From: a virus
Strand: one strand, 5' to 3'
DNA length: 44,491 nucleotides
Virus record (IMG/VR): IMGVR_UViG_3300034167_000448
Coordinates: 1-44,491 of that record
A program made the position numbers and the translations under genes. The notes under the pieces were generated by a model. That model made no database searches. It saw only the letters and a program-made list of their open reading frames with translations, and was not told the origin of the DNA. Shown here piece after piece: positions 17,584 through 43,797 of the stretch; position 1 is the first letter of the stretch, and every line of letters starts with the position of its first letter.

Positions 17584-17764
17584 TGTTTATAATTTTTTTT
17601 AAAATTATAAGAGTAGGTTACAAGGTACTCATTAGTTAGATTTTCCCTTGTTCCTTTATTTAACCTCTTAGTATTTATTTTTGTTTCTCAGAATAAATTT
17701 ACTAAATAACTGAGAGAATACATAGTGTATAAGAACTACCAAAACTTTCTATATATTCTTCGAA

Positions 17765-17822
17765 GCAAGGGCAGGAATCGAACCTACACACTCTTTAAAC
17801 CTTAACCATTCAGTCACCTTGC
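17765..17822 (-). other. tRNA-like sequence lacking an anticodon arm
   Basis: Read on the minus strand, 58 bases begin GCAAGG and end CCTTGC, a 6-base acceptor-like stem. A D-loop-like segment (GAATGGTTAAGG) follows, then GTAGG-TTCGATT-CCTGC, a well-formed T arm. Only about 11 bases separate the D and T arms where a normal tRNA needs over 20, so no anticodon arm can form. It looks like a tRNA gene that lost its centre. No CCA is encoded. It lies between the VRR-NUC gene and the small genes in a 257-base gap where I see no other gene. Confidence 0.55.
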
Positions 17823-17840
17823 TAACCGACCGAGGATACC

Positions 17841-28562: not shown

Positions 28563-28723
28563 ATTGTTTTTGGTTTCCATATTCCAATGGAGTTAATTCC
28601 TCTATTTACTTGGTACATAGGAGCTGTATATATAAAATTTACAATCTCATTTAATCCTTTATAATTATTTACAAGAACATAAGTTCCATTTCCATAATTA
28701 TTTATTGCATATCCTTCTTTCAT
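28559..28723 (-). CDS. Small protein, 54 residues
   Basis: Starts MKEGYAINNYGNGTYVLVN and ends WKPKTI; beta-strand patterns, no membrane segment. Overlaps both neighbours by 4 bases. Function unknown. Confidence 0.55.
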   Translation of the reverse strand: MKEGYAINNYGNGTYVLVNNYKGLNEIVNFIYTAPMYQVNRGINSIGIWKPKTI

Positions 28724-28830
28724 TTTGTATCAATTTTTTCGTAAGCGTTACACATTCTTTCGTTATCGTGATAATAAATGGATTGTACTGTTTTTCTCAT
28801 CCATTTGTCAAAAGCCTTAATTTCTTTCAT
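28720..28830 (-). CDS. Small protein, 36 residues
   Basis: Starts MKEIKAFDKWMRKTVQSIYY; helical and amphipathic. Overlaps the upstream gene by 14 bases and the next by 4. Function unknown. Confidence 0.5.
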   Translation of the reverse strand: MKEIKAFDKWMRKTVQSIYYHDNERMCNAYEKIDTK

Positions 28831-29011
28831 ATTGCGATAAGATTAATTGTTTATCAAACTCCTCATCCTCTGATATTTTGCCAAAGATAATAAATTTTCT
28901 ATTAATCCTAGCTAATTCTTTTAAATGATTTAAAGCAATGCTTAATTTTCTTTCTTGATGATTCATAACCATCTCTAAAGATTCTATCTGTTGTAAGATT
29001 GTTTCTTCCAT
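28817..29011 (-). CDS. Small coiled-coil protein, 64 residues
   Basis: Starts METILQQ-like (MEETILQQIESLEMVMNHQE) with heptads through residue 40, then a basic hydrophobic patch (RINRKFIIFGK). Overlaps the first gene of the operon by one base. It may oligomerise with that gene's product. Function unknown. Confidence 0.55.
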   Translation of the reverse strand: MEETILQQIESLEMVMNHQERKLSIALNHLKELARINRKFIIFGKISEDEEFDKQLILSQYERN

Positions 29012-29259
29012 TATAGTATTGATATTTCTAAGGTTAATCTTTTTTTAAGTCTTTTCAATTCCACTTCTAATTCATAACTAAGGACTCCGAAAATTTCTTT
29101 CTCTTGCTCAATAAGATTTATCTTATTGTTGATTCTTTGTATCGTTCCAGCGATTCCGTTAATTTCTTCAATCAATGCGTTTAAAACATCATCGTTGAAC
29201 TCTCTCTCTGCATAATCTATAATGTTTTCTAATGCAGTTCCTGTTTGCTCTATGTCCAT
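29011..29259 (-). CDS. First gene of the early operon, coiled-coil protein
   Basis: A product of 82 residues starting MDIEQTGTALENIIDYAERE with a long coiled coil (INGIAGTIQRINNKINLIEQ). A longer GTG-started frame reaches 29337, but a perfect promoter lies inside that extension, so translation must start at the downstream ATG. It leads the leftward operon and is probably made very early. Function unknown. Confidence 0.65.
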   Translation of the reverse strand: MDIEQTGTALENIIDYAEREFNDDVLNALIEEINGIAGTIQRINNKINLIEQEKEIFGVLSYELEVELKRLKKRLTLEISIL

Positions 29260-29309
29260 TTTTATTTTATTTAAAGTCTGCCACAAATTTGTTTCCTTGA
29301 CTTCGAGTA

Positions 29310-29339
29310 CAAATCTACATAACATACATAAATCCACAA
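29310..29339 (-). promoter_or_regulatory. Main promoter of the leftward early operon
   Basis: On the minus strand TTG (29337-29339), exactly 19 bases and TAGATTTG (29310-29317). It fully fits the Bacteroidetes consensus and faces the long early operon. Confidence 0.85.
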
Positions 29340-29440
29340 TACTGTTTTAGAAAACTTTAACACAAAAGTGCTGTTTTGTAGGAAAAAAGTATTGAAAAGT
29401 GCCATTTTTCATTTTTTATAAAAAAAAAGTGCGTTTTTAT

Positions 29441-29481
29441 ACCCCCCCCCTAAACAAAATACCAAAATAGGGTGGGGGGGT
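29441..29481 (+). promoter_or_regulatory. C-run/G-run hairpin of module A
   Basis: An A followed by nine C (29442-29450), a 19-base A-rich loop, then GGG-T-GGGGGGG-T (29470-29481). In an A+T-rich genome this is very stable. T-rich sequence follows on the plus strand (TCTATTTCC), so it may terminate transcription, or the G-run may bind protein or form a quadruplex in trans. Confidence 0.65.
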
Positions 29482-29560
29482 CTATTTCCTATTATTTTAT
29501 AAAAAAAACTAATTAATTAATATATATATAAAAATAGTAGTATAGTATTAATTAATTTAT

Positions 29561-29568
29561 TATCTTTG
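29561..29568 (+). promoter_or_regulatory. Late-type promoter in module A
   Basis: TATCTTTG followed by TAGCAA, identical around the box to module B. No -33 TTG is present; instead ATAGTATTAATTAATTT lies upstream in both copies. This suggests recognition with a phage factor. Confidence 0.6.
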
Positions 29569-29589
29569 TAGCAACTAATATATTTATTT

Positions 29590-29898
29590 ATGAGTATAAG
29601 TCATACTGGAATGGTTTTCTTTGGAACTGAAGCAAAACCTTATAAAGAACCTGAAATACAAGATTCAATCGTAAATAGCGTTGTAAATCAATTTAAAGAG
29701 CGTTCTGAAGTAGGAATTGCTAAATATGGTGTTACCCTTGACCGAGAAGATTTAAGTACCTTAGAATGGCTACAACATCTCCAAGAAGAATTATTTGACG
29801 CCAGTCTTTATATTGAAAAGTTAAAATCTAAATTACATATAATCGATATGATGAAAGCTGATGAGGAATTAGGATTATATGATTGTCAATGTAAGTAA
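29590..29898 (+). CDS. MazG-like nucleotide pyrophosphohydrolase-type protein
   Basis: A product of 102 residues. KYGVTLDREDLSTLEWLQHL followed by QEELFDASLYIEKLK matches a widespread group of short phage proteins with an EExxD metal-site helix like that of MazG. Such proteins may hydrolyse nucleoside triphosphates or alarmones, but activity of this short form is unproven. It is the only gene driven by module A and converges with the next gene (19 bases between stops). Confidence 0.55.
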   Translation: MSISHTGMVFFGTEAKPYKEPEIQDSIVNSVVNQFKERSEVGIAKYGVTLDREDLSTLEWLQHLQEELFDASLYIEKLKSKLHIIDMMKADEELGLYDCQCK

Positions 29899-29917
29899 TT
29901 CCTTTTACTCGCTGGGG

Positions 29918-30196
29918 TTATCTAAAGAACTTTAGTAGGTTAATGTCCACTTCTGATTTGGTATCGTACTTTAACTGAGCTAGACCTCTCTCAACTATAT
30001 TCATAACCTCATCAGTTGTATTGGTTTTCCAACCTATTCTCTTTAATAGAACCGTTCTGTTTTTATACTTAAAATAATCAATTGCTGTTGAGTGCATAAG
30101 TTGCCTCGTTAGGTTCACAAAATCATAGTCAATCTCCTTACTGTCCAGTATGATTTGATTATTTTTAGCTATCTCTATAAGTTTTTCGTCTGTCAT
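29918..30196 (-). CDS. Hypothetical protein, 92 residues
   Basis: A soluble, helical, charged product starting MTDEKLIEIAKNNQIILD. No recognised family, though a small regulator is conceivable. It has a TATATTTG box just upstream (30201-30208), facing it, and lies back to back with a possible RNA gene. Confidence 0.6.
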   Translation of the reverse strand: MTDEKLIEIAKNNQIILDSKEIDYDFVNLTRQLMHSTAIDYFKYKNRTVLLKRIGWKTNTTDEVMNIVERGLAQLKYDTKSEVDINLLKFFR

Positions 30197-30200
30197 AGTG

Positions 30201-30208
30201 CAAATATA
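30201..30208 (-). promoter_or_regulatory. Promoter box of the 92-residue protein gene
   Basis: TATATTTG on the minus strand, ending 5 bases before the start codon, which would give a very short or no leader. TTG-like triplets occur 14 and about 16 bases upstream instead of 19, so the match is partial. Confidence 0.5.
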
Positions 30209-30280
30209 ACAAACCCTTACAACAAATTAATGCTATAAGGGTTGTATTTTTTTCGTCTTTCCGAAATGCCAAAGAATATG

Positions 30281-30288
30281 TATATTTG
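30281..30288 (+). promoter_or_regulatory. Promoter box of a possible small RNA
   Basis: TATATTTG on the plus strand with TTC (30259-30261) at the -33 position, one base off the consensus. No substantial frame follows in this direction (only a 6-codon frame at 30298), so the product may be RNA. Confidence 0.5.
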
Positions 30289-30292
30289 TAAG

Positions 30293-30425
30293 GATTTATG
30301 AAAATTTTACCTAATTAACACCCTACTTTGACTCAAGCATATACACGACCTACATTGTATCTTTTACAAGGATTTCCATTCATTAATTAGGCTTTATATT
30401 GTATTGCTCACTCGTGAGCATTATT
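30293..30425 (+). ncRNA. Candidate structured small RNA
   Basis: Downstream of the 30281 box, CCTAATTAA (30310-30318) and TTAATTAGG (30383-30391) can form a closing stem around 64 bases. A stable hairpin TGCTCA-CTCG-TGAGCA (30405-30420) followed by TTATTGTATT could end the transcript. Promoter, closing stem and end hairpin in this order suggest an RNA of about 130 bases. It would overlap the 3' end of the leftward gene at 30408 and be partly antisense to it. No known RNA family is recognised. Confidence 0.4.
30405..30420. terminator. Hairpin between converging transcripts
   Basis: TGCTCA-CTCG-TGAGCA, a 6-base stem with a four-base loop, overlaps the stop codon of the leftward gene at 30408. 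The sequence beyond is U-rich on the plus strand (TTATTGTATT), so it is best read as a terminator of the rightward RNA. Confidence 0.5.
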
Positions 30426-30599
30426 GTATTGGACAGTGTCCACTTGTGTCGGTGGGTTCATTACCTCTCCAAGTGTCCACTCTTGCGAAGTGTCCAGATG
30501 ATTTATAATCCAATGTCTTGCATCTGATATGTTTAATGCTCTGAATGTGTAATGTTCCTTATTTGATTTTGCGTAGTACGTTCTCAAAATATTTCCCAT
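30408..30599 (-). CDS. Small hypothetical protein, 63 residues
   Basis: Starts MGNILRTYYAKSNKEHYTFR and contains SDARHWIINHLDTSQEW, like small phage proteins with an SxxDARxWI motif. The gene contains three copies of AGTGTCCA and one CGGTGGGTT, echoing the repeat array at 30839. Overlaps the upstream gene by 16 bases. Confidence 0.5.
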   Translation of the reverse strand: MGNILRTYYAKSNKEHYTFRALNISDARHWIINHLDTSQEWTLGEVMNPPTQVDTVQYNNAHE

Positions 30600-30745
30600 A
30601 AAATATCTACCCCATTACTTTCAATTATTCTTTGTCCAATTTCGTAATTAACTATTTTACGAGCATTTTCTAATGAAAACCAGCTATCTAATCCAGTTCC
30701 AGCATTAAAAAAAGTACCATTAAAGTTTTGTATTCTGTATTTCAT
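30584..30745 (-). CDS. Small hypothetical protein, 53 residues
   Basis: Starts MKYRIQNFNGTFFNAGTGLD and contains WFSLENARKIVNYEIG, again a SLENAR pattern similar in style to its downstream neighbour (NISDARHWI). The two may be related. It is preceded by a perfect early promoter. Function unknown. Confidence 0.55.
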   Translation of the reverse strand: MKYRIQNFNGTFFNAGTGLDSWFSLENARKIVNYEIGQRIIESNGVDILWEIF

Positions 30746-30770
30746 AATTTTTAGTTTTAAATTTCTTCTG

Positions 30771-30800
30771 CAAATATATGGCGACTGTTTGAATTATCAA
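30771..30800 (-). promoter_or_regulatory. Promoter of the leftward two-gene unit
   Basis: On the minus strand TTG (30798-30800), exactly 19 bases, TATATTTG (30771-30778). A full consensus match, 26 bases before the start codon at 30745. Confidence 0.8.
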
Positions 30801-30838
30801 CTATGCATTAACAAAAGTTTAACTTATTTCTTTTATGT

Positions 30839-30938
30839 CGGTGGGTTTAGTTCCGTTTATACGGTGGGTTTAGTTCCATTTATACGGTGGGTTTAGTTCC
30901 GTTTGGTCGGTGGGTTTAGTTCCGTTTGGTCGGTGGGT
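30839..30938 (+). repeat. 23-base direct repeats, four and a third copies
   Basis: Four adjacent copies start CGGTGGGTTTAGTTCC and end GTTTATA, ATTTATA, GTTTGGT and GTTTGGT; a fifth stops after CGGTGGGT. Copies begin at 30839, 30862, 30885 and 30908. There are no spacers, so it is not a CRISPR array. The unit is G-rich on this strand in an A+T-rich region, as iterons or operator arrays often are. ACCCACCG, the inverse of its first 8 bases, appears at 33899-33906 right after the 16-base array. Confidence 0.95.
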
Positions 30939-31165
30939 AAAAAAGTGAAAAATCACAAAATGTTACAAATATAACAAAATGTTACAAAAAACATCAAAAT
31001 GATTTTTAGCTTGTTTAAAGCATTATTTTAATCAAAATGTATCAATACATCAAAAAAGTTTTTTATCGCCTTAAATTGACTGAAAAAGCTATCTAAAAAA
31101 TCAACTATAAAACGTAAAATGTAAATTTTAACATAATATTAACAAAATTTTAACACTTTAAAGTA

Positions 31166-31195
31166 TTGTTTTAATCAAAAACAGTTGTATATTTG
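31166..31195 (+). promoter_or_regulatory. Promoter of the rightward small-gene operon
   Basis: TTG (31166-31168), exactly 19 bases and TATATTTG (31188-31195). A full consensus match facing the operon that starts at 31242, with a leader of about 40 bases. Confidence 0.85.
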
Positions 31196-31241
31196 TATAA
31201 GAAAGGAAGCAATAAAGCAACCTAAAAAAAACTTAAATAAA

Positions 31242-31337
31242 ATGAAAAAAGAAACTTTAAACACAGTATTATTCTTTGCACTAGTAGTTGTTTTAACCGT
31301 GACAATACATTTTTTAACAGCACCGATATATAGATAA
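31242..31337 (+). CDS. Single-span membrane peptide, 31 residues
   Basis: Starts MKKETLNTVLFFALVVVLTV; one membrane helix, short C-terminus. First gene after the promoter, two bases before the next. Small membrane peptides at the head of an early operon may act on host membranes or be toxin-like; there is no direct evidence. Confidence 0.5.
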   Translation: MKKETLNTVLFFALVVVLTVTIHFLTAPIYR

Positions 31338-31339
31338 CT

Positions 31340-31438
31340 ATGAAAAACTACTTTTTAAAACAGAAATATCAAATTTTAACGGCTCAAATATTTGCAGCCT
31401 ATTTAATAATCAATTTAATAATTAATTTAATAAACTAA
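31340..31438 (+). CDS. Small hydrophobic peptide, 32 residues
   Basis: Starts MKNYFLKQKYQILTAQ and continues with a membrane segment (FAAYLIINLIINLIN). The C-terminal Ile/Asn repeat is encoded by repeated AATTTAATAAT words, so part of it may be low-complexity DNA. Real translation is moderately likely from tight spacing. Confidence 0.4.
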   Translation: MKNYFLKQKYQILTAQIFAAYLIINLIINLIN

Positions 31439-31442
31439 AATT

Positions 31443-31646
31443 ATGAAAAATTATAAAATTCAAGCGACTCATATAATTGACAACGACCCACAAACCTATA
31501 AAAAATTTATTTTTTATTACAGTACACACGAACCAATTGAAACTTGTTATTACTATTTTTTTAATATCATAAATAACAATTATCAATTTTCTAAAATTGA
31601 CCTAAACAATGACTCTAATTTCAATCTTTTAATAACAACCTTTTAA
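31443..31646 (+). CDS. Hypothetical protein, 67 residues
   Basis: Starts MKNYKIQATHIIDNDPQTYK; rich in Asn, Tyr and Phe, probably a small beta/alpha protein. Four bases after the preceding peptide gene. Function unknown. Confidence 0.55.
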   Translation: MKNYKIQATHIIDNDPQTYKKFIFYYSTHEPIETCYYYFFNIINNNYQFSKIDLNNDSNFNLLITTF

Positions 31647-31658
31647 AACTTAAACAAA

Positions 31659-32483
31659 ATGAAAAAAGTAAATTCACCACAACAAACCGCGCATTTATTC
31701 GCCACCCAAACACAAAACGAAGCGTACACGCCAACAAGAAACTTATATTTTTATGAGAAAAGTATTTTTTCTTATGGCTCTCATTTTTGTATAGCAAAAT
31801 TTATAGATGAAAAAACGCTACTTTTTACCGAGCGAAGCTACTCAAATACAACCGCCAAACATATACAAGTAGTAAGGCACGCCACAAGTCACATAAACAA
31901 AATTTATTGTGCAAATCCAAATAATTCACACGTTGATAATTTTAGTTTTTGGTTAAACAATGCGGAAACTTTAGCCGATAAATTAAAAAGAGCAAACAAA
32001 CCCGAAATTTATATTTCGCAATTGCAACAAATAGAAAACAAGGCGAATATTTACGCGAATTATTTTAGTATCGTAATACCTGAAACTTTGCAAACAGTTC
32101 TTAAAGTGACCACAAAAGCCGAAATTTTGGCATATATGGAAAACAAAGCGGAACTAATAAAAGCGGAAAAAATAGCCAAAGAAAAAGCGTTAAAAAAAGA
32201 ACATACCACAAATTTAAAAAAGTGGCGGAATTTTGAAATATCAAAACTATATACAAGAAATGAGGGTATAGATTATTTGCGAAAAAATGAAACGGAATTT
32301 CAAACATCTCAAGGCGTAAAAATACCGCTTGAAATAGGCAAACGATTTTATAATAATTTAGCAAATGTAAAGCCAAACGATAAATTTTTAGACTATACAA
32401 TTAACGAAGTAACCAAACAATTTATTAAAATAGGTTGTCACAAAATAACATTTAAAGAAATTAATAACGTAATAAATAAATAA
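31659..32483 (+). CDS. Conserved phage/plasmid protein of unknown function, 274 residues
   Basis: The N-terminal half has a recognisable pattern: HLFATQTQNEAYTPTRNLYF, then SIFSYGSHFCIAKF, then RSYSNTTAKHIQVVRHAT. I know it from a family spread widely among phages and plasmids whose function is not established. The C-terminal half is a Lys/Glu-rich helix (about 165-200) and a basic tail. GCG, GCC and CGC codons are visibly more frequent than in the structural genes, hinting at separate origin. It is the largest gene of this operon. Confidence 0.65.
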   Translation: MKKVNSPQQTAHLFATQTQNEAYTPTRNLYFYEKSIFSYGSHFCIAKFIDEKTLLFTERSYSNTTAKHIQVVRHATSHINKIYCANPNNSHVDNFSFWLNNAETLADKLKRANKPEIYISQLQQIENKANIYANYFSIVIPETLQTVLKVTTKAEILAYMENKAELIKAEKIAKEKALKKEHTTNLKKWRNFEISKLYTRNEGIDYLRKNETEFQTSQGVKIPLEIGKRFYNNLANVKPNDKFLDYTINEVTKQFIKIGCHKITFKEINNVINK

Positions 32484-32484
32484 T

Positions 32485-32682
32485 ATGACTATACACGAAA
32501 TAAAAAAACGAGTAACAAACGCACCTTTTTTCTTTACTACCAAATCAATGAAATTTTTTGGTCAAACTTTAAAATCTTTTAAAGTGCGGAAACTAGAAAA
32601 CGGAAACTTTTACATATTTGCACCGCACAAAAACGGTTTCACGGAAAGAGAATTTAACCCAATAACAAATAAATTTATTTAG
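32485..32682 (+). CDS. Hypothetical protein, 65 residues
   Basis: Starts MTIHEIKKRVTNAPFFFTTK; basic, with FFGQTLKSFKVRKLENGNF and a C-terminal aromatic pattern. Two bases after the 274-residue gene, a spacing typical of small proteins that accompany that family. Function unknown. Confidence 0.55.
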   Translation: MTIHEIKKRVTNAPFFFTTKSMKFFGQTLKSFKVRKLENGNFYIFAPHKNGFTEREFNPITNKFI

Positions 32683-32683
32683 T

Positions 32684-32944
32684 ATGAAAATATATATAAT
32701 TGAAAACGGAAACTTAGAAAAAACGGGCTTAATTTTTTGGTATGACAAAAAAGCATTTAAAAGCAAAAAAGACTCTTTATTTTATATTAAAAATAGTTTT
32801 GAAGTAAACAAAGGAACTAACAAAATAGAAAACGACTGTATTTTTGATGATAAAGTAAATTTTATTACTTATAATTGTTTTTCTACTGATAATAGAGAAA
32901 TGACAGTTTATTTAAAAATAACAGAAATTAAAACATATTATTAA
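32684..32944 (+). CDS. Hypothetical protein, 86 residues
   Basis: Starts MKIYIIENGNLEKTGLIFWY; Lys- and Asn-rich, beta-strand pattern at both ends. One base after the previous gene. No family recognised. Confidence 0.55.
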   Translation: MKIYIIENGNLEKTGLIFWYDKKAFKSKKDSLFYIKNSFEVNKGTNKIENDCIFDDKVNFITYNCFSTDNREMTVYLKITEIKTYY

Positions 32945-32945
32945 T

Positions 32946-33053
32946 ATGGAAAACGAAAACCCCCCGCCTTTTTTAGCCTTATTTTTAGCATTTTGTTGTA
33001 TTGGCTCAATTTATGGTATTATAGCACTAATAGGATTAATTTTAAACGTATAA
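32946..33053 (+). CDS. Small membrane peptide, 35 residues
   Basis: Starts MENENPPPFLALFLAFCCIG; a Pro-rich start followed by about 25 hydrophobic residues with two Cys. One base after the preceding gene. Third membrane peptide in this operon. Function unknown. Confidence 0.5.
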   Translation: MENENPPPFLALFLAFCCIGSIYGIIALIGLILNV

Positions 33054-33066
33054 ACAAAAAAAACTT

Positions 33067-33642
33067 ATGAAAACAATTGAAATAAAATTATATAAATTTA
33101 CAGAATTAAGCGAACAAGCCAAAAATGTAGCAATTGAAAAACAAAGAAACCACGAAATAGATTTTGATTGGTTTTCTGATTATTGCCACGAACAAATAAG
33201 CGAAAAAGGTTTTAAAGGTAATATAAAATTGCAATATAGTTTGTCTTATTGTCAAGGCGACGGGCTGTCTTTTTCGTGTGACTATTTTAACAATTTAAAT
33301 GCCTTATTTGTTGAAATTTTAGGCACTGAAAAGCAAAAAACAATAGACTGTATAATTAATAATTGCAGCCTAAAAATTAAAGGCAATGACCGCCGCTATT
33401 GTTATGCTCATAGAAACGATATTAACTTTGAATTGGATAACTATTACGTAAAAAGCAGCACTAATTTAGATAATTTAATTAGTGAAGTTGAAAGCAAATT
33501 AAAGGACTTATATATTGACTTATGTAACGAATTACAAAAACAAGGATATGACGATATCGAAAACCAATATAGCGACGAATATATTACGGAAACATTAATA
33601 GAAAAAGATTATTATTTTACTATTGACGGCTTAATTTATTAA
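33067..33642 (+). CDS. Conserved phage protein of unknown function, 191 residues
   Basis: KLYKFTELSEQAKNVAIEKQ at the N-terminus is the hallmark of a common phage family (the LSxxAKxxAI pattern), followed by WFSDYCHEQISEKGF and LQYSLSYCQGDGLSFSCDY, where the QGDG motif is conserved in the family. The role is not established, though some members are annotated as antitoxin-like. It closes the rightward small-gene operon. Confidence 0.65.
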   Translation: MKTIEIKLYKFTELSEQAKNVAIEKQRNHEIDFDWFSDYCHEQISEKGFKGNIKLQYSLSYCQGDGLSFSCDYFNNLNALFVEILGTEKQKTIDCIINNCSLKIKGNDRRYCYAHRNDINFELDNYYVKSSTNLDNLISEVESKLKDLYIDLCNELQKQGYDDIENQYSDEYITETLIEKDYYFTIDGLIY

Positions 33643-33659
33643 TGTTTTCAAGGAATTAG

Positions 33660-33749
33660 ACAAAAAAACACAAAGACAACGCCTTCAATTTTCGCACAAA
33701 CGTATAGAAACATTTATAGAGATTAAAACCTTTATAGATGTTTTTTTGT
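33660..33749 (+). terminator. Long-range inverted repeat after the small-gene operon
   Basis: ACAAAAAAACA (33660-33670) pairs with TGTTTTTTTGT (33739-33749) across 68 bases. The stem is A-U only and distant, so it is a weak terminator candidate at best; the T-run at its right end could still help release RNA. Confidence 0.35.
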
Positions 33750-33761
33750 GTCTTATTCCTT

Positions 33762-33889
33762 CAGGTGCATACTCTTACAGGTGCATACTCTTACAGGTGC
33801 ATACTCTTACAGGTGCATACTCTTACAGGTGCATACTCTTACAGGTGCATACTCTTACAGGTGCATACTCTTACAGGTGCATACTCTTA
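33762..33889 (+). repeat. Eight perfect 16-base tandem repeats
   Basis: The unit CAGGTGCATACTCTTA is repeated eight times without a single change, 128 bases in all, with no spacers. It lies between the small-gene operon and the terminase genes. Perfect identity implies recent expansion or strong conversion. Iteron-type replication origin, regulator-binding array or recombination hot spot are all possible; translation is unlikely because the frame shifts with each unit. Confidence 0.97.
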
Positions 33890-33922
33890 CAACAAGCCAC
33901 CCACCGAAAAGAAACCAAAGGC

Positions 33923-33982
33923 AAAAACAGACCCCCAGCCACTGAAAATGACACAAGCTAAGCTAAAAACAGACCCCCAGCC
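33923..33982 (+). repeat. Direct repeat of 18 bases beside the tandem array
   Basis: AAAAACAGACCCCCAGCC occurs at 33923-33940 and again at 33965-33982, 42 bases apart (four turns of DNA), so both copies would face the same side of the helix. C-rich words like these are rare in this genome outside the control modules. Confidence 0.85.
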
Positions 33983-34322
33983 CCCCTATTTTGAAACGAC
34001 ATAGACTATATCTAACCCCCTCCATAAATTTTTTCCACACAATATAACTTTTCATTTGCAGTATTTTCTTACATATATTTATTCAAAGACCCTACAAAAA
34101 TTTTTTCCCTATTCTATATACTTTTTGAAAGAGAGAAGATTCTTACAAGTTGTAAAAATAAAATAAAAGCCGTTTGTTGTCGTTTAATCCACTTTTGAGT
34201 TAGAAATACAAATTATTTAAGATTACAGTTCCAACTAAAAAATAGAAATGTCTTGTTTTGTAGGAAAAAAGTATGAAAAACGGCACTTTTTGAAAAAACG
34301 TAAAAAAAAAACACACTTTTAT

Positions 34323-34362
34323 ACCCCCCCCCTAAAAAGTGATGTACGAAATAGGGGGGGGT
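34323..34362 (+). promoter_or_regulatory. C-run/G-run hairpin of module B
   Basis: A plus nine C (34324-34332), CTA extended pairing, a loop of about 20 bases, TAG and eight G (34354-34361). It is even more regular than the copy in module A. T-rich sequence follows. It may insulate the late operon from upstream transcription or mark DNA for packaging. Confidence 0.65.
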
Positions 34363-34440
34363 CTATTTTCCTTTATTTTATAAAATATTATTATTATTAA
34401 AAAAATATATATATATATATAATAGTATTAATTAATTTTG

Positions 34441-34448
34441 TAACTTTG
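34441..34448 (+). promoter_or_regulatory. Late-type promoter of the terminase operon
   Basis: TAACTTTG preceded by AATTTTG and followed by TAGCAA. No TTG at -33. It shares 18 bases with the promoter before the tape measure gene and is the likely start of the rightward morphogenesis transcript. Confidence 0.65.
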
Positions 34449-34472
34449 TAGCAATTATTATAATTTATAAGA

Positions 34473-34910
34473 ATGGAAAGAGATAAAGTATTTTTGGATA
34501 TTATTCAACAGATAGAGTTGGGTCGTTCAATAAAGAATATATTAGATGGTGATGATTTCCCAATCACACGAGGTACTTTCTACAGCTGGTTAAATGACAA
34601 TCCCGATAGAATAGAATTATATAAGAAAGCTACTGAAATACGTGCTGATGGTATCTTTGACGATATGTTAGAGATTTCTGATGATGGTACTAAGGACTAT
34701 TACTATGATGTTAATGGAAACAGACAACAAAGTATGGTTGCAGTTAATCGCTCTAGGTTACAACTTGACACTCGTAAATGGGTATTGGGGAGAATGAATC
34801 CTAAGAAGTATAGTGAGAAGTTAGATATTACTTCAGGAGGCGATAAATTGAAAATAGTTCCGATTATAGGGATGCAGATTATTAACCAAGAAGAAGAAGT
34901 TGCAGAATAA
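34473..34910 (+). CDS. terS: Terminase small subunit
   Basis: A protein of 145 residues. The N-terminal helix-turn-helix (IKNILDGDDFPITRGTFYSW) would bind the packaging site; the middle (EIRADGIFDDMLEISDD) and C-terminal RSRLQLDTRKWVLGRMNPKK match terminase small subunits of many phages. It recognises phage DNA and recruits the large subunit. First gene of the rightward morphogenesis block, overlapping terL by 11 bases, with module B directly upstream. Confidence 0.88.
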   Translation: MERDKVFLDIIQQIELGRSIKNILDGDDFPITRGTFYSWLNDNPDRIELYKKATEIRADGIFDDMLEISDDGTKDYYYDVNGNRQQSMVAVNRSRLQLDTRKWVLGRMNPKKYSEKLDITSGGDKLKIVPIIGMQIINQEEEVAE

Positions 34911-36258
34911 AAGCCTATCGCTAAATGTAAGAGGTAATTTAAAGCAGTTAGAGGCAATAAAAGCTTGGACTGATAAAACTACCATTGATATTGTTTATGG
35001 TGGCTCTAAAGGCTCAGGAAAGACTTTTATAGGGTGTTCTTTGATATGTGCTGATGCACTGATGTATCCTGAAACGCATTACTTCATTGCGAGAAAGACT
35101 TTGGCAGATTTACGTAAGTTTACCATTCCTTCTATTCAAGAGGTTTTAAGTGGATGGGGAATAACGGAAGATTATTATAGTTTTAATGGTCAAGATAACT
35201 ATTTTAAGTTTCACAATAAGTCTAAGATATTTTTGATTGATGCGAAGTATTTACCAAGTGACCCGAACTATATGAGATTTGGGGGTATGCAGAATACTCG
35301 TGGTTGGATTGAAGAAGCTGGAGAGTTTGATATAGAGTGTAAGAATAACTTACAAGCCTCTATTGGTCGTTGGAAGAATAAGGAGTATAATTTAGCTCCA
35401 AAGTTGTTGCAGACTTGTAACCCTAGTAAAAATTATTTATACAAAGATTATTATAAAGCAACAATTGATGGTAATATTCCAAGCCACAAGAAATTCATTC
35501 AAGCCTTGCCAACAGATAACAAAACACTACCTGAGGATTATGTTCCCAACTTAATGAAGATATTGAGTCACAACGAGATTCAAAGACTTGTGTATGGGAA
35601 TTGGGAATTTGATGATAATCCTTATGCGATGTTTGAGTATTCAGATATTCTTGGATTATATACAAATGAGTTTGTAAAGCCTACCGAACAGAGGTATATG
35701 ACTTGTGACATTGCTTATACTGGTTCTGATAAGTTTGTTATTGTGATATGGGCAGGATTTGTAGCATTGAAGATAATCGCAATTGATAAGATTGACGATA
35801 CGATGGTGAGTAAGAAGATAAATGAGTTGAGAATAGAGAATAGAGTGCCGCTTAAAAATGTGATATATGATGCTGATGGATTGCAGACATTTACGAGAGC
35901 ATCAACAAAGTTAGGTAATTTAGTAGGAGCAACACCATTTAACAATAATGGGAAACCGATAAAAATGCACGGAAAGACTGAGAACTTTAAGAATTTAAAA
36001 GCTCAATGTTACTGGTATTTTGCAGAAGCGGTTAAGGATTCTAAGATGTTTATTCAAGAAGATAAATATAGAAAGCAAGTTATCGAGGAATTAGAGCAGA
36101 TAAACAGACAGCCATTACAAGATGATGGTAAGATAGCTCTAGAGAAAAAGGAAGAAATAAAAAAGAGGATAGGTCGCTCTCCTGATTTTGCTGATGCGTT
36201 AATGATGCGATTTTTCTTTGAGTTAAAGGGTAAGCCGAGATTAAGGATAATTTGGTAA
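34900..36258 (+). CDS. terL: Terminase large subunit
   Basis: A protein of 452 residues. Walker A is GGSKGSGKT (34-42), Walker B GWIEEAGE (135-142, with paired acidic residues), a coupling-type CNPS follows, and the RNase H-like nuclease shows CDIAYTGSDKF (Asp270, Asp277), YDADG (near 324) and SPDFADAL near the C-terminus. It pumps DNA into the prohead and cuts it. The order terS-terL-portal is standard. Confidence 0.95.
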   Translation: MQNKSLSLNVRGNLKQLEAIKAWTDKTTIDIVYGGSKGSGKTFIGCSLICADALMYPETHYFIARKTLADLRKFTIPSIQEVLSGWGITEDYYSFNGQDNYFKFHNKSKIFLIDAKYLPSDPNYMRFGGMQNTRGWIEEAGEFDIECKNNLQASIGRWKNKEYNLAPKLLQTCNPSKNYLYKDYYKATIDGNIPSHKKFIQALPTDNKTLPEDYVPNLMKILSHNEIQRLVYGNWEFDDNPYAMFEYSDILGLYTNEFVKPTEQRYMTCDIAYTGSDKFVIVIWAGFVALKIIAIDKIDDTMVSKKINELRIENRVPLKNVIYDADGLQTFTRASTKLGNLVGATPFNNNGKPIKMHGKTENFKNLKAQCYWYFAEAVKDSKMFIQEDKYRKQVIEELEQINRQPLQDDGKIALEKKEEIKKRIGRSPDFADALMMRFFFELKGKPRLRIIW

Positions 36259-36270
36259 ATAAATAAAAAT

Positions 36271-37908
36271 ATGATATTTAAAAGCAACGAACAAGCCGTA
36301 TCGGCTATTAAGAGTAATCTTAAAATCAATGAAGAATTTGTTGAAATGCGTGAATGTTCTGATGAACTAAAAGCACTTGTAAACGGAGATGATTTCATCG
36401 ATGAGCTTATAGAGAATATAGAAGGTATTGAAAGCACAGTAAAAGCAGATGCTAGAAGAAAGTACAGTAGAAGTATCAAAGATTTATTCGGAAGAATATT
36501 TCAACCTATCGATAATATTTACTACGCAACTGGAGGAATCAAGGACTATGACATTTTAAACCCTACGATTAAATCAGACTTTTTAAACAAGATTGCAAAT
36601 ATTAGAGATGGTAAATCTTTAACGGAATGGGTACAAGATAATGCGATTAGATTAATGAATACAGACCCTAATGGTTTGATGTTCTTAGAATATACTACCG
36701 AGCCAAATATTGATATTTATCCTACTTACAAATCTATCGACAGTATTCGTTATTACGAGTCAAAAGGTCAAATGATTGAGTATGTAATATTCGAACCAAA
36801 GAGATTAGAAAACAGACAGTTTTGGAGAGTTGTTGATGATTTGACAGATAGAACTTTTGAGCAAATAGGTCTTGAGTTTAAAATTATACCTGAATTATCA
36901 TTTGAGCATCCATTTGGTCAAGTTCCTGCATTAATTTGCTCTAACATACAGATACCAGCAGAAGAAGAAAGATTGTCAGCTATTGATAACATTATAGACA
37001 TATCCAAAGAATATGCGAGAGACCAATCATTCTTAACATTATATAAAATTTATAAGGGCAATCCAATCTTTTGGAAATACGTTCAGTATTGTGGAGATTG
37101 TGCTGGTTCAGGTAAAGTAGAGGAAGAAAAATGTACTACTTGCGATGGTCACGGAAAGATGATGGGCAAGAGTGATGTGACAGGTGTTGTTGAGTTACCT
37201 ATTCCTGATGATAGAGACAGTCCTATTATCGCACCAAACATTGCAGGATTTATATCCCCTGATTTAGATGTGTGGAAACAATACTCAGAAGAATTGAATT
37301 TACTTGAGGAGAAGATGTATAAAACACATTGGGGAACAAGTTATGGTATTCAGAATATGAACAATGTAGAGAAAACAGCTACAGAGATAATCTACAACAA
37401 ACAGCCTTTAGAAAATCGATTAAATAAATATGCAGACTTTATTGAGTACGTAGAGTGGAAGTTCTGTGAATGGATATTGAATTTTTATGACTTAGGCAAG
37501 AGTAGGTCTGAAACTAGAATAACAATTAATTTAGGTCGTAGATATATTGTTGAAGGATATGACACATTACTTGAAAGATATGAGATGTCGGTTAAGGCTG
37601 AAGAAAATAGTGTTGTGTTGGATAAGTTATTTAGTGAGTATTTATCGGCAAAATATAGAAATAATCCAATTGATTTGCAAATTAATTTGTTAAAAATGCG
37701 GATTGAACCATATTTACACTTACCTTTACAAACAGTTTTAAATATCTTTGGAAACGAAGAAGCACAAAGAAAAGTATTATATCAAAAATGGTGGCAAACC
37801 GTTACTGATTATAGCAAGTCAGAAGAAGTATTGACTGCTGAATTTAATAACTGGTTTGAATTAAATAAAAAGGTTGTAGCACCACCAGTTACACCGATAA
37901 CTAAATAA
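36271..37908 (+). CDS. Portal protein with a DnaJ-like cysteine insert
   Basis: A protein of 545 residues directly after terL, where the portal belongs. Sequence patterns (DPNGLMFLEYTTEPNIDIYP, then IDNIIDISKEYARDQSFL, then WGTSYGIQNMNNVEKTATEI) fit a portal of the SPP1/phi29-like kind. Near residues 272-294 it has CGDCAGSG and CTTCDGHGK, two CxxCxGxG motifs as in the DnaJ zinc finger, unusual for a portal. Twelve such subunits would form the DNA entry ring and head-tail connector. Confidence 0.85.
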   Translation: MIFKSNEQAVSAIKSNLKINEEFVEMRECSDELKALVNGDDFIDELIENIEGIESTVKADARRKYSRSIKDLFGRIFQPIDNIYYATGGIKDYDILNPTIKSDFLNKIANIRDGKSLTEWVQDNAIRLMNTDPNGLMFLEYTTEPNIDIYPTYKSIDSIRYYESKGQMIEYVIFEPKRLENRQFWRVVDDLTDRTFEQIGLEFKIIPELSFEHPFGQVPALICSNIQIPAEEERLSAIDNIIDISKEYARDQSFLTLYKIYKGNPIFWKYVQYCGDCAGSGKVEEEKCTTCDGHGKMMGKSDVTGVVELPIPDDRDSPIIAPNIAGFISPDLDVWKQYSEELNLLEEKMYKTHWGTSYGIQNMNNVEKTATEIIYNKQPLENRLNKYADFIEYVEWKFCEWILNFYDLGKSRSETRITINLGRRYIVEGYDTLLERYEMSVKAEENSVVLDKLFSEYLSAKYRNNPIDLQINLLKMRIEPYLHLPLQTVLNIFGNEEAQRKVLYQKWWQTVTDYSKSEEVLTAEFNNWFELNKKVVAPPVTPITK

Positions 37909-39403: not shown

Positions 39404-39410
39404 AATAAAA

Positions 39411-39448
39411 AAAATCCCTTACGAATTTAAAACTTGTAGGGGATTTTT
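39411..39448 (+). terminator. Intrinsic terminator before the capsid gene
   Basis: AAAATCCC (39411-39418) pairs with GGGATTTT (39440-39447) around a 21-base loop and ends in a T-run. It ends transcripts from the terminase promoter partially or fully, just before the capsid promoter. Confidence 0.8.
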
Positions 39449-39450
39449 CT

Positions 39451-39458
39451 TAACTTTG
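39451..39458 (+). promoter_or_regulatory. Late-type promoter of the major capsid gene
   Basis: TAACTTTG directly after the terminator, followed by TACCAC, without -33 TTG. It gives a leader of about 80 bases containing the G-rich stretch GGCGGTAGTTGGAGG. Own promoter for the most abundant virion protein is reasonable. Confidence 0.65.
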
Positions 39459-39540
39459 TACCACTTTGGCGGTAGTTGGAGGGATTCGGGCGGTATGCTC
39501 ACAATTAAAAAGAGTATTATCAATTAAAATTTAAAGCAAA

Positions 39541-40572
39541 ATGGCTAACAAGACCACCGCAAATTTAGTAAAAGCACAAGCAAGATTACTTGGAGCTTTC
39601 CAATCTTCTGAATTAAGATTCAGATACCCAGCTACTTATTTAGCACTTAAAGGAATGTCACCTATTATGTTCCCTAACTACGATGAACTTCGTGTAAGAG
39701 AGGACAGAACAGTAGAAACAAACTTCATCGCAAGAGCAAAACGTTCTCTTGGAACAGGTGGAAGAACTCACAACCACACTGGTGTGAAGCAAGATTCAGC
39801 AATACTAACTCCATCTTGGACTCAATATTCTGATAAATTCAATATGTCATTGAAACAAGCTGACAGCTCTTTGTATAATGCAGATGAGCAATTGTTCAAC
39901 GAAATTTCAAATGCAGTATCTAACTTTATGGAAGGATATGAAACAGCTGCTACTTCTTACATCTTTACAAACAGAAGTGCTGTAGTTGCTACAACTCCTG
40001 AGTGTACATTTATTACTGCTGGTACAGTAAATGCTTATGAGATTGCTTCTGCTAACGAAAGTAGAGCTATGCAAATCACTAAGATTGCAATGATGGCTAA
40101 TAAATATCCTGAAGGAATTACAATTTTCTGTGATTCAGTTGCTTATGCTAAATTTGAGTATCAAGCTGCTCAAGGTATTTCTAACTCTGCTAACTTGTCA
40201 TTCCAATTCAATGGAGTAACATTTGTTCACTCAGTAGAACTTAATGCTCTTGCAGTTGCAGTAAAAGCTGGTCATACAAAAGGATATTGGATTGTAGTTC
40301 CTGATGGAACTGTGTCTACATTGCCTTGGATTCCTAAACAAAACAGAGTTGGTGTTGAAACAGTAGTAGGTAACTACTCTAATATCATCAACCCTATTGA
40401 CGGAGAATCTTACGCATTGCATACTTATGTAACTGCTGCTGATGATAGTTCAAACAATGGTTATACTCAAGATGTAGTTACTCAATACGAAATATCTCAA
40501 GATATGTCATTTGCTAAAGCTCCTCTTACAGTATCGACTGAAACTCCTATCATTGCATTTGCAATTATCTAG
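39541..40572 (+). CDS. Major capsid protein
   Basis: A protein of 343 residues after scaffold-like and promoter sequences, with capsid-like composition (Ala, Asn, Thr-rich, few Cys). SLGTGGRTHNHTGVKQDSA is followed by a long helix (EISNAVSNFMEGYETAATSY), and the second half has beta patterns typical of the HK97 fold. No propeptide cleavage site is obvious. The codon choice is more careful (GCT, GGA, CTT frequent) than in its neighbours, as in highly expressed genes. Confidence 0.85.
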   Translation: MANKTTANLVKAQARLLGAFQSSELRFRYPATYLALKGMSPIMFPNYDELRVREDRTVETNFIARAKRSLGTGGRTHNHTGVKQDSAILTPSWTQYSDKFNMSLKQADSSLYNADEQLFNEISNAVSNFMEGYETAATSYIFTNRSAVVATTPECTFITAGTVNAYEIASANESRAMQITKIAMMANKYPEGITIFCDSVAYAKFEYQAAQGISNSANLSFQFNGVTFVHSVELNALAVAVKAGHTKGYWIVVPDGTVSTLPWIPKQNRVGVETVVGNYSNIINPIDGESYALHTYVTAADDSSNNGYTQDVVTQYEISQDMSFAKAPLTVSTETPIIAFAII

Positions 40573-43254: not shown

Positions 43255-43279
43255 TATTTAGATTTAATTAATTTATTAG

Positions 43280-43312
43280 ACCCGATGCGTAACAGTATCG
43301 GGTTTATTTTTT
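43280..43312 (+). terminator. Intrinsic terminator after the tail tube gene
   Basis: ACCCGAT (43280-43286), a 10-base loop, ATCGGGT (43297-43303), then TTATTTTTT. Clear stem plus T-run. It overlaps the beginning of a longer open frame that would start at 43285, which argues for the later start at 43324. Confidence 0.85.
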
Positions 43313-43319
43313 ACCTTTG
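43312..43319 (+). promoter_or_regulatory. Late-type promoter after the tail tube terminator
   Basis: TACCTTTG followed by TATT and the ATG at 43324. Transcription would start at or very near the start codon, so the mRNA may be leaderless. Same terminator-then-promoter arrangement as before the capsid gene. Confidence 0.55.
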
Positions 43320-43323
43320 TATT

Positions 43324-43797
43324 ATGGGAATTAAAGAGTACATAGAAAATGCTAAAATAGTTCAAAATTCTATAAAAGGATATGTTGATGATATTGCATT
43401 AATGAAAGAAGATGAGATAATAAATCTTAATGTAACTCAAATGCAATCGGGAATAGGTAGTAATGACCAAGCACTAAAATATCCATTTGAGGATTATAGC
43501 GGTAAGTACACTCAAAGAACAGTAGCTGAATCCTTAAAAAGACCTACAGTATTACCTAAATCTGTTGGTGCATTGTATAACTTTGGTGCATCAGGAGATT
43601 TCTTATCTAATTTTCAAGTTAGAATAACGAGTGAAAACAAATTAGAGGTTTTTAGCACAGGTACAGGAACAGGTAGTAAAAGAACTTTACTTACTCAAAC
43701 TCCATATATGTATGGTTTAAACACAGAAAATACTCGTAAACTCAACTACGAAATAATATATCCTGAACTAATGAAATTTATAAAACAATTTATATAA
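43324..43797 (+). CDS. Putative tail assembly chaperone or tail protein
   Basis: A product of 157 residues starting MGIKEYIENAKIVQN. I chose 43324 because a terminator and promoter occupy the 5' end of the longer frame. Location between tail tube and tape measure genes, next to a second gene, suggests the gpG-like chaperone, though residues such as KSVGALYNFGASGDF are not diagnostic. The frame of the next gene is open from 43784, overlapping the end of this one. Confidence 0.55.
   Translation: MGIKEYIENAKIVQNSIKGYVDDIALMKEDEIINLNVTQMQSGIGSNDQALKYPFEDYSGKYTQRTVAESLKRPTVLPKSVGALYNFGASGDFLSNFQVRITSENKLEVFSTGTGTGSKRTLLTQTPYMYGLNTENTRKLNYEIIYPELMKFIKQFI

Follow-up and report, generated by a model that had tools for sequence, protein, structure and literature searches.

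A repeated C/G hairpin module in a Bacteroidota-type phage as a candidate terminator-promoter junction and recombination patch

Introduction

Promoter-early stem-loop (PeSL) cassettes have reportedly been described in T4-type phages by Arbiol et al. 2010 and Comeau et al. 2014. A PeSL is a composite promoter-terminator motif, repeated, that is said to mediate gene shuffling between related phages and that shows a high copy density in regions of shuffling (PMC4503421). A comparable arrangement is described here in the IMG/VR virus record IMGVR_UViG_3300034167_000448, whose whole 44,491-base stretch was analysed and is called the window. Two diverged copies of a module bracket a 4.9-kb interval, module A lying 5' of a 102-aa gene and module B 5' of the gene for the small terminase subunit. 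At the level of sequence each module, like the PeSL, combines a promoter-like element with a stem-loop in an intergenic place. We lean towards a reading in which the modules are terminator-promoter junctions that double as recombination patches between copies.

The promoter-like part recalls the Bacteroidota primary sigma factor, for which TAnnTTTG is the -7 consensus; in Flavobacterium johnsoniae the -33 motif was reportedly not identified (PMC7366714).

Results

Homology and layout of the two modules

An earlier note on this DNA had claimed two diverged copies of a 219-base control module. In a global alignment, 29372-29589 and 34254-34472 agree at 171 of 211 aligned columns, and 15 positions are gapped. 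Their local score of 275 exceeded those of 1000 dinucleotide shuffles of B (mean 131, maximum 163.5) and that of the best other 219-base stretch taken every 50 bases across the window (149.0 on the + strand, module areas excluded, and 151.5 on the - strand). The identity of A and B is well above that of shuffled sequence and, on this alignment, the two modules are homologous repeated units. Their relationship stands as claimed; the 219-base extent does not. Strong homology spans the TGTTTTGTAGG block to CTTTGTAGCAA, where it ends, so that the unit measures 203 bases in A and 201 in B, whereas the earlier segments reached the start codons. The modules and their parts are as follows.

29372-29574, + strand: module A, whole unit from block 1 to CTTTGTAGCAA, 203 bases, 5' of the 102-aa gene; aligns with B, copies in relatives
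34254-34454, + strand: module B, whole unit, 201 bases, 5' of the small terminase gene; aligns with A, copies in relatives
29372-29391, + strand: block 1 of A, TGTTTTGTAGGAAAAAAGTA, same sequence in A and B
34254-34273, + strand: block 1 of B, same sequence in A and B
29442-29480, + strand: hairpin A, C9 / GGGTG7, terminator-like, -21.0 kcal/mol, z -0.78
34324-34361, + strand: hairpin B, C9 / G8, terminator-like, -22.8 kcal/mol, z -2.59, with 1 of 200 shuffles folding as well
29542-29558, + strand: ATAGTATTAATTAATTT of A, 5' of the -7 element, from the A-B alignment and site listing
34422-34438, + strand: ATAGTATTAATTAATTT of B, 5' of the -7 element, from the A-B alignment and site listing
29561-29568, + strand: TATCTTTG, TAnnTTTG-type -7 element of A, matching the consensus given in PMC7366714
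34433-34448, + strand: TAATTTTGTAACTTTG, two abutting TAnnTTTG elements of B, at 34433 and 34441, from the motif search

The hairpin arms had been given as nine C facing nine G and are corrected by the runs listed above. Within the window TTGTAGGAA occurs three times against a mean expectation of 0.55, a count of at least three being reached in 1 of 100 shuffles. The core of ATAGTATTAATTAATTT, the A+T block TATTAATTAATTT, is present in 23 of 26 complete copies and missing in copy A of G003, G009 and G020; this set comprises the complete copies collected and excludes eight further records whose copies are incomplete or weaker.

Block 1 may be a protein-binding site. It was not seen 5' of the hairpin in L030, L031 and L132. 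A second promoter within block 1 was considered on the strength of its -7-like TTTGTAG and set aside, as the TA four bases 5' is not kept among copies; a lone copy in G013 does carry TAATTTTGTAGG. By inspection, a short frame follows block 1 in B copies (ATGAAAAA...) and is a candidate leader peptide. The longer A modules of L003 and L010 contain a reversed block-1 core (TTTCCTACAAA) between hairpin and promoter, and at about the same place L038 has TTGTAGGAATTTAGA with a reverse-complement partner.

Promoter-like elements

The -7 element lies 80 (A) and 79 (B) bases 3' of the hairpin and 21 (A) and 24 (B) bases 5' of the start codon. No TTG was found 17-23 bases 5' of the -7 element in either module. 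To these are added two sites elsewhere in the window.

778-793, + strand: TAATTTTGTAACTTTG, double -7 as in B, 5' of a tape-measure-like gene at 849 (PHROGs)
29310-29317, - strand: TAGATTTG, diverging leftward promoter-like site with TTG 19 bases 5', in a region kept in relatives

The window holds 22 intergenic TAnnTTTG sites. Six that lie more than 350 bases from any gene on their own strand were dropped (17676, 18563, 21574, 30281, 33704 and 30973, the last of which has a TTG), as was 42194, which falls inside a 53-aa frame, and two overlapping pairs were merged. TTG stood 17-23 bases upstream in none of the six rightward loci 778/786, 15932, 29561, 34433/34441, 39451 and 43312, and in 6/7 of a group made up of the six leftward loci and 31188 on the + strand (two-sided Fisher p = 0.0047, the grouping having been chosen after seeing the data). 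Divided by strand alone, the counts were 1/7 and 5/6 (p = 0.029), and leaving out the uncertain locus 43312 gave 0/5 against 6/7 (p = 0.015). As background, TTG occurs at such spacing at ~13% of intergenic + strand positions. The module promoter is probably one of a phage class without a -33 TTG, and such a class may need a phage helper. Module B precedes the terminase genes and is without the TTG seen at most sites before leftward genes, which points to late expression, a timing that we infer.

Hairpins and similar junctions elsewhere in the window

In the modules the C/G hairpin is followed on its 3' side by an interrupted T-rich tract (TCTATTTTCC). Rfam gave no match at the modules at the gathering threshold. 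One further site in the window has the same layout, and another may have it.

39410-39458, + strand: second terminator-promoter-like junction, a hairpin with T-run and then TAACTTTG, 5' of the gene at 39541, -16.3 kcal/mol, z -5.46
43277-43319, + strand: possible third junction, a hairpin with T-run and then TACCTTTG, -17.2 kcal/mol, z -6.38

The junction at 39410-39458, whose stem is unrelated to those of the modules, is kept in relatives, where stem changes preserve pairing by eye. Between its promoter-like site and the gene at 39541 lies a conserved G+C-richer leader (39459-39503, ACTTTGGCGGTAGTTGGAGGGATTCGGGCGGTATGCTCA). It is nearly unchanged in many relatives, its middle part differs in L008/L035 and L020, and Rfam gave no match to it at the gathering threshold.

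A hairpin is also present in the diverged relative L033/L034, whose small terminase is 76% identical to that of the window. There CCACCCC/GGGGTGG takes the place of the C-run hairpin (-19.3 kcal/mol and z -3.23 for the hairpin stretch), and TATCTTTG still lies 3' of it.

Pairing of the B loop AAAAGTG with a CACTTTT 5' of the C run was considered as a pseudoknot or anti-terminator. Among the 26 complete copies both elements are present in 16 B copies. The loop occurs without CACTTTT in copy A of G003, G005 and G009, in copy B of G010 and in the single module of G006, CACTTTT occurs without the loop in copy A of G020, and the remaining four A copies have neither. The pairing is therefore not maintained among copies and this candidate was dropped.

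Copies in related records

An exact scan for the 20-base block 1 in viral_contigs returned 13 stretches on 12 contigs, twelve complete and one (L004) ended by the contig edge. The order of block 1, C/G hairpin and CTTTGTAGCAA was kept in all twelve complete copies, which bears out the block order put forward in the earlier note, except that ATAGTATTAATTAATTT is more variable than the other blocks. Module B was matched in 27 of 32 related records at E 0.001. The site is covered in three of the unmatched records and holds another hairpin with the same upstream sequence in G024 and G025, and another inverted repeat in G027. G028 keeps the 102-aa gene and shows no C-run hairpin within the 370 bases examined, while the contig of G026 begins inside or just before the terminase match.

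None of the 32 related records carries more than two full copies. Two are present in six records: the window, G002, G005, G010, G017 and G020. The distance from the start of A to that of B is 4,882 bases in the window, 5,066 in G002 and about 5,665, 5,090 and 5,575 in G005, G010 and G017. In G020, B lies at 17 and A at 37,557 of 42,839, and the interval spans the contig ends, its length presuming circularity. A single copy lies between both outer flanks in G006.

In the relatives that cover the interval (L022, L016/L039, L024/L005 and L028/L041) both modules are retained, as is the gene that follows A, and the content differences fall inside the interval and do not reach the modules; the gene after copy A differs in L003, L011 and L119. 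Since it is the genes within the interval that vary, the modules do not resemble the ends of an inserted element. The notion of an acquired segment with the modules as its ends, such as a composite mobile element, could draw on the direct repeats at either side of a 4.9-kb region, which is absent in G006 and whose G+C is in part lower (0.25-0.27 at 31-33 kb). The four interval proteins scanned against Pfam gave no family at E 0.01, the differing part stays off the modules, and both copies are kept in six records, which together make this notion highly improbable. Of the corresponding claim in the note, the sense of insertion is unsupported, and another sense is partly right, in that recombination between the copies may be able to remove the segment (G006).

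Hybrid and mosaic modules

The left part of the single G006 module is of A type, 93% identical to the A reference as against 71% for the B reference, and its right part is of B type, at 79% and 100%, respectively. By blastn, 28718-29581 and 34254-37000 of the window are adjacent in L037, the contig of G006, and overlap only within the module. None of eight interval proteins searched by tblastn (E 1e-3) was matched in the 24.4 kb of G006. The same search detected 29590, 29918 and 30408 in G020 or G013 and missed the other five in the stretches of both, so that it is the absence of these three alone that tells anything.

Further copies look mosaic. In G020, copies A and B have 76 identical bases in common; the left part of its copy A is 99% identical to its own B and at most 75% identical to any other A, with a loop of the A kind, and the right part is at most 73% identical to any copy. 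Copies A of G005, G003 and G009 have the loop otherwise seen in B copies, and in G010 the left part of B matches the A reference at 71% and its own reference at 69%. Across the six two-copy genomes the longest identical A-B run measures 18 to 76 bases (21 in the window). These patterns suggest that copies were at times swapped or recombined, and as signs of a recombination-joint role they are suggestive, not conclusive.

The same modules might instead reflect regulatory duplication only, in which selection for co-regulation kept an old terminator-promoter duplicate that plays no part in shuffling, and the hybrids and mosaics arose by faulty assembly or as rare accidents. It would fit the want of clear within-genome homogenisation of A and B, the separate lineages that A and B keep at corresponding places in the six records, and the dependence of the hybrid on a single contig. 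It would also call for two switch points in copy A of G020, with its 76 bases identical to its own B, and would have to accommodate B-type loops in three A copies from three contigs as well as the altered left part in B of G010. Duplication alone is on balance an unlikely account, if one to be taken seriously.

Wider distribution of the C/G hairpin

A search for the hairpin pattern with TA flanks returned 34 stretches in viral_contigs and 2 in genome_contigs, the latter two appearing unrelated by their flanks. By flanks and shared contig names, 23 of the 34 viral stretches were assigned to the group of the window and 9 to a second group; of the remainder, L122 precedes another gene and L135 looks unrelated. 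The search pattern itself fixed part of the flanks, and likeness between the groups is therefore partly selected. In L120, the one second-group member whose genes were read, the hairpin lies 3' of a 69-aa gene and of a weakly helix-turn-helix (HTH)-like one, whose HTH_28 match (E 0.0011) does not reach the Pfam cut-off. On its other side comes a short gene run with a Terminase_3 large subunit as its last member. The gene directly 3' of this hairpin matched no family, and the large terminase of L120 shows weak similarity to that of the window (E 7e-4 over ~50 residues).

A looser pattern without the TA flanks matched at least 119 stretches, and among 80 of these loci viewed, 7 were known carriers and 73 looked unrelated. 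With so many unrelated loci, a C-run hairpin is nothing unusual by itself, whereas its flanked form seems to be. More tentatively, a homopolymer-hairpin cassette (TATA-C8-10-TAAA...AAATA-G7-10-T) common to at least two Bacteroidota-type phage groups may serve at the same time as an insulator, a phage-specific late promoter entry and a recombination joint for the loss or swap of whole operons with their regulation preserved, a proposal that we hold to be possible and somewhat doubtful. In another phage group, the loci L177, L180, L195, L198 and L173 each have between one and four hairpins, apparently intergenic, in which a long C run is followed by a long G run, with runs mostly of at least 15 each and with the flanks GCACG...TGCT and TATCCCCTTGGGATA in common.

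Genome context and the terminase genes

The window has a 187-base repeat at both ends (99% identical), as expected for a circular or circularly permuted genome of ~44.3 kb. Among the leftward genes at ~17.8-29.3 kb are those for a YqaJ-type recombinase and for a primase-like protein, and rightward genes include terminase, head and tail proteins (Pfam, PHROGs). Module A sits at the switch of gene direction from left to right and module B immediately 5' of the small terminase gene. The genes next to the modules are as follows.

29590-29898, + strand: 102-aa gene, first gene after module A, kept in relatives
34473-34910, + strand: small terminase subunit, Sf6-like, Pfam PF20901 (Sf6_terminase) E 7.5e-26, PHROG 1482 E 8.1e-29
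34900-36258, + strand: large terminase subunit, Pfam PF03237 (Terminase_6N) E 3.9e-09

The two Pfam terminase matches support the terminase operon after module B, as had been proposed, and the best match of the large subunit in the phages collection was Flavobacterium phage 11b (35.9%). The label MazG-like, given to the gene after A, found no support: the 102-aa gene had no match in Pfam (E 0.01) or NCBIfam (E 1), the sole match among Protein Data Bank (PDB) sequences was a sentrin protease at E 0.54, which is not meaningful, and every PHROGs match was of unknown function. A transfer RNA candidate at 17763-17823 on the - strand was reported by Rfam (37.4 bits) and not by ARAGORN.

The position of B raises a further alternative, that the adjoining small terminase recognises B as its pac or cos site, A being a by-product copy. 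B ends 18 bases 5' of the small terminase gene, the hairpin of L120 is likewise 5' of a short gene run leading to a large terminase, and a packaging or replication element, as suggested in the note, is compatible with B. It fits poorly with copy A and with relatives in which a similar hairpin precedes other genes. Also against it, the module ends in a TAnnTTTG promoter element, and the diverged relative L033/L034 alters the hairpin sequence and keeps both a hairpin and a promoter-like element. A packaging site is accordingly judged very unlikely.

Two repeat arrays lie within the interval. At 33762-33891 a 16-base unit (CAGGTGCATACTCTTA) is repeated perfectly eight times, ~580 bases 5' of the small terminase gene, as a candidate site for terminase binding or replication. 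Near its contig end (L144 6162-6258) G020 carries CAGGTGCA seven times, spaced by 16 bases, L005 (G005) and L040 (G003) align to the array, and nine other loci checked for it had none or one octamer and no array. The tandem array at 30839-30938 repeats a 23-base unit (CGGTGGGTTTAGTTCCGTTTAGA) 4.3 times, and G002, G005, G003 and L019 align to it as well. CGGTGGGT occurs again near 30451, and inverted near 33905.

Discussion

The favoured reading, of terminator-promoter junctions that double as recombination patches, has two parts. The first rests on the identity of A and B above shuffles, TAnnTTTG at both 3' ends, the C/G hairpins, the same layout at 39410-39458 and perhaps at 43277-43319, and the replacement hairpin of L033/L034 with its -7 element. 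The C-run/G-run hairpin with its T-rich tail would halt transcription from upstream, and ~80 bases on the TAnnTTTG -7 element would start a rightward operon, namely the 102-aa gene after A and the terminase and head genes after B. A phage-specific regulatory unit, one of the suggestions of the note, is supported at this level by a terminator-like hairpin and a promoter-like element that are repeated and conserved. The second part rests on the G006 hybrid, the 76-base identity in G020, the B-type loops in A copies, the altered left part in B of G010 and the presence of a YqaJ-type recombinase in the phage. As direct repeats with identical runs, A and B would be usable as homologous recombination patches. 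A crossover between A and B would delete the segment between them and leave a hybrid with all parts, and partial exchange between copies would yield mosaic modules. In this way blocks of genes might be lost or traded with control of their neighbours preserved.

Several observations weigh against one or other part of this reading. Hairpin A is no more stable than same-composition shuffles, 41 of 200 of which fold as well, and the C/G runs alone therefore account for most of its energy. A simple terminator scan with a loop limit of 8 lists neither module hairpin. Copy A adjoins diverging leftward genes, so that no rightward transcript is obviously in need of stopping there, and copy A of G020 reads TACCTTTA in place of TAnnTTTG. 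At 43277-43319 the gene start is doubtful, with the -7 just 4 bases before the ATG at 43324 and an in-frame ATG also at 43285; a start at 43285 would place hairpin and -7 both inside the gene, and the site is therefore uncertain. G006 is a metagenome contig and a likely pair of parent modules, A of G003 and B of G001, share a 47-base exact run, so the hybrid is possibly an assembly chimera. In the six two-copy genomes A-B identity was 77.5% within and 75.5% between genomes for the left part and 73.2% within and 74.2% between for the right, which is not clearly higher within genomes and makes exchange occasional or sporadic at most. The longest identical A-B run is 18-45 bases in 5/6 of these genomes, short for ordinary recombination.

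Were the favoured reading true, the link of regulatory junctions to modular exchange in T4-type phages would extend to unrelated Bacteroidota-type phages with different promoters, and the joints where gene blocks come and go would become named. The modules would also provide a candidate terminator-promoter part for Flavobacterium genetics, for which, to our knowledge, such parts seem few.

The modules may be measured against three known systems. The hairpins resemble intrinsic (Rho-independent) terminators in part, with a strong G+C hairpin followed by a T-rich tract, and depart from them in a stem of a C run against a G run, a long loop and the interruptions of the tract, the z of hairpin A being only -0.78. 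At 29561, 34433 and 34441 the -7 consensus of Bacteroidota primary sigma (sigma-ABfr-type) promoters is matched exactly, whereas the TTTG that these promoters have at about -33 finds no counterpart in a TTG at 17-23 bases in either module. As with PeSL, copies lie at gene-content breakpoints, namely the G006 junction, on one contig, and the other genes after A in L003, L011 and L119. In PeSL terms, however, the order differs, the hairpin coming first with the -7 ~80 bases on; the hairpin is one of homopolymer runs, the genes driven would include the terminase operon, and there are just two copies with no high density. The phage, a 44-kb record with an Sf6-type small terminase, is by these features not a T4-type myovirus. 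By this comparison the modules would work like PeSL cassettes but fall outside that group in copy number and phage type. The literature searched showed no description of a comparable unit from phages of Bacteroidota, a result of no wider reach than the search itself. Terminator-promoter shuffling joints are already known from T4-type phages; what appears to be new is the homopolymeric hairpin unit in two phage groups.

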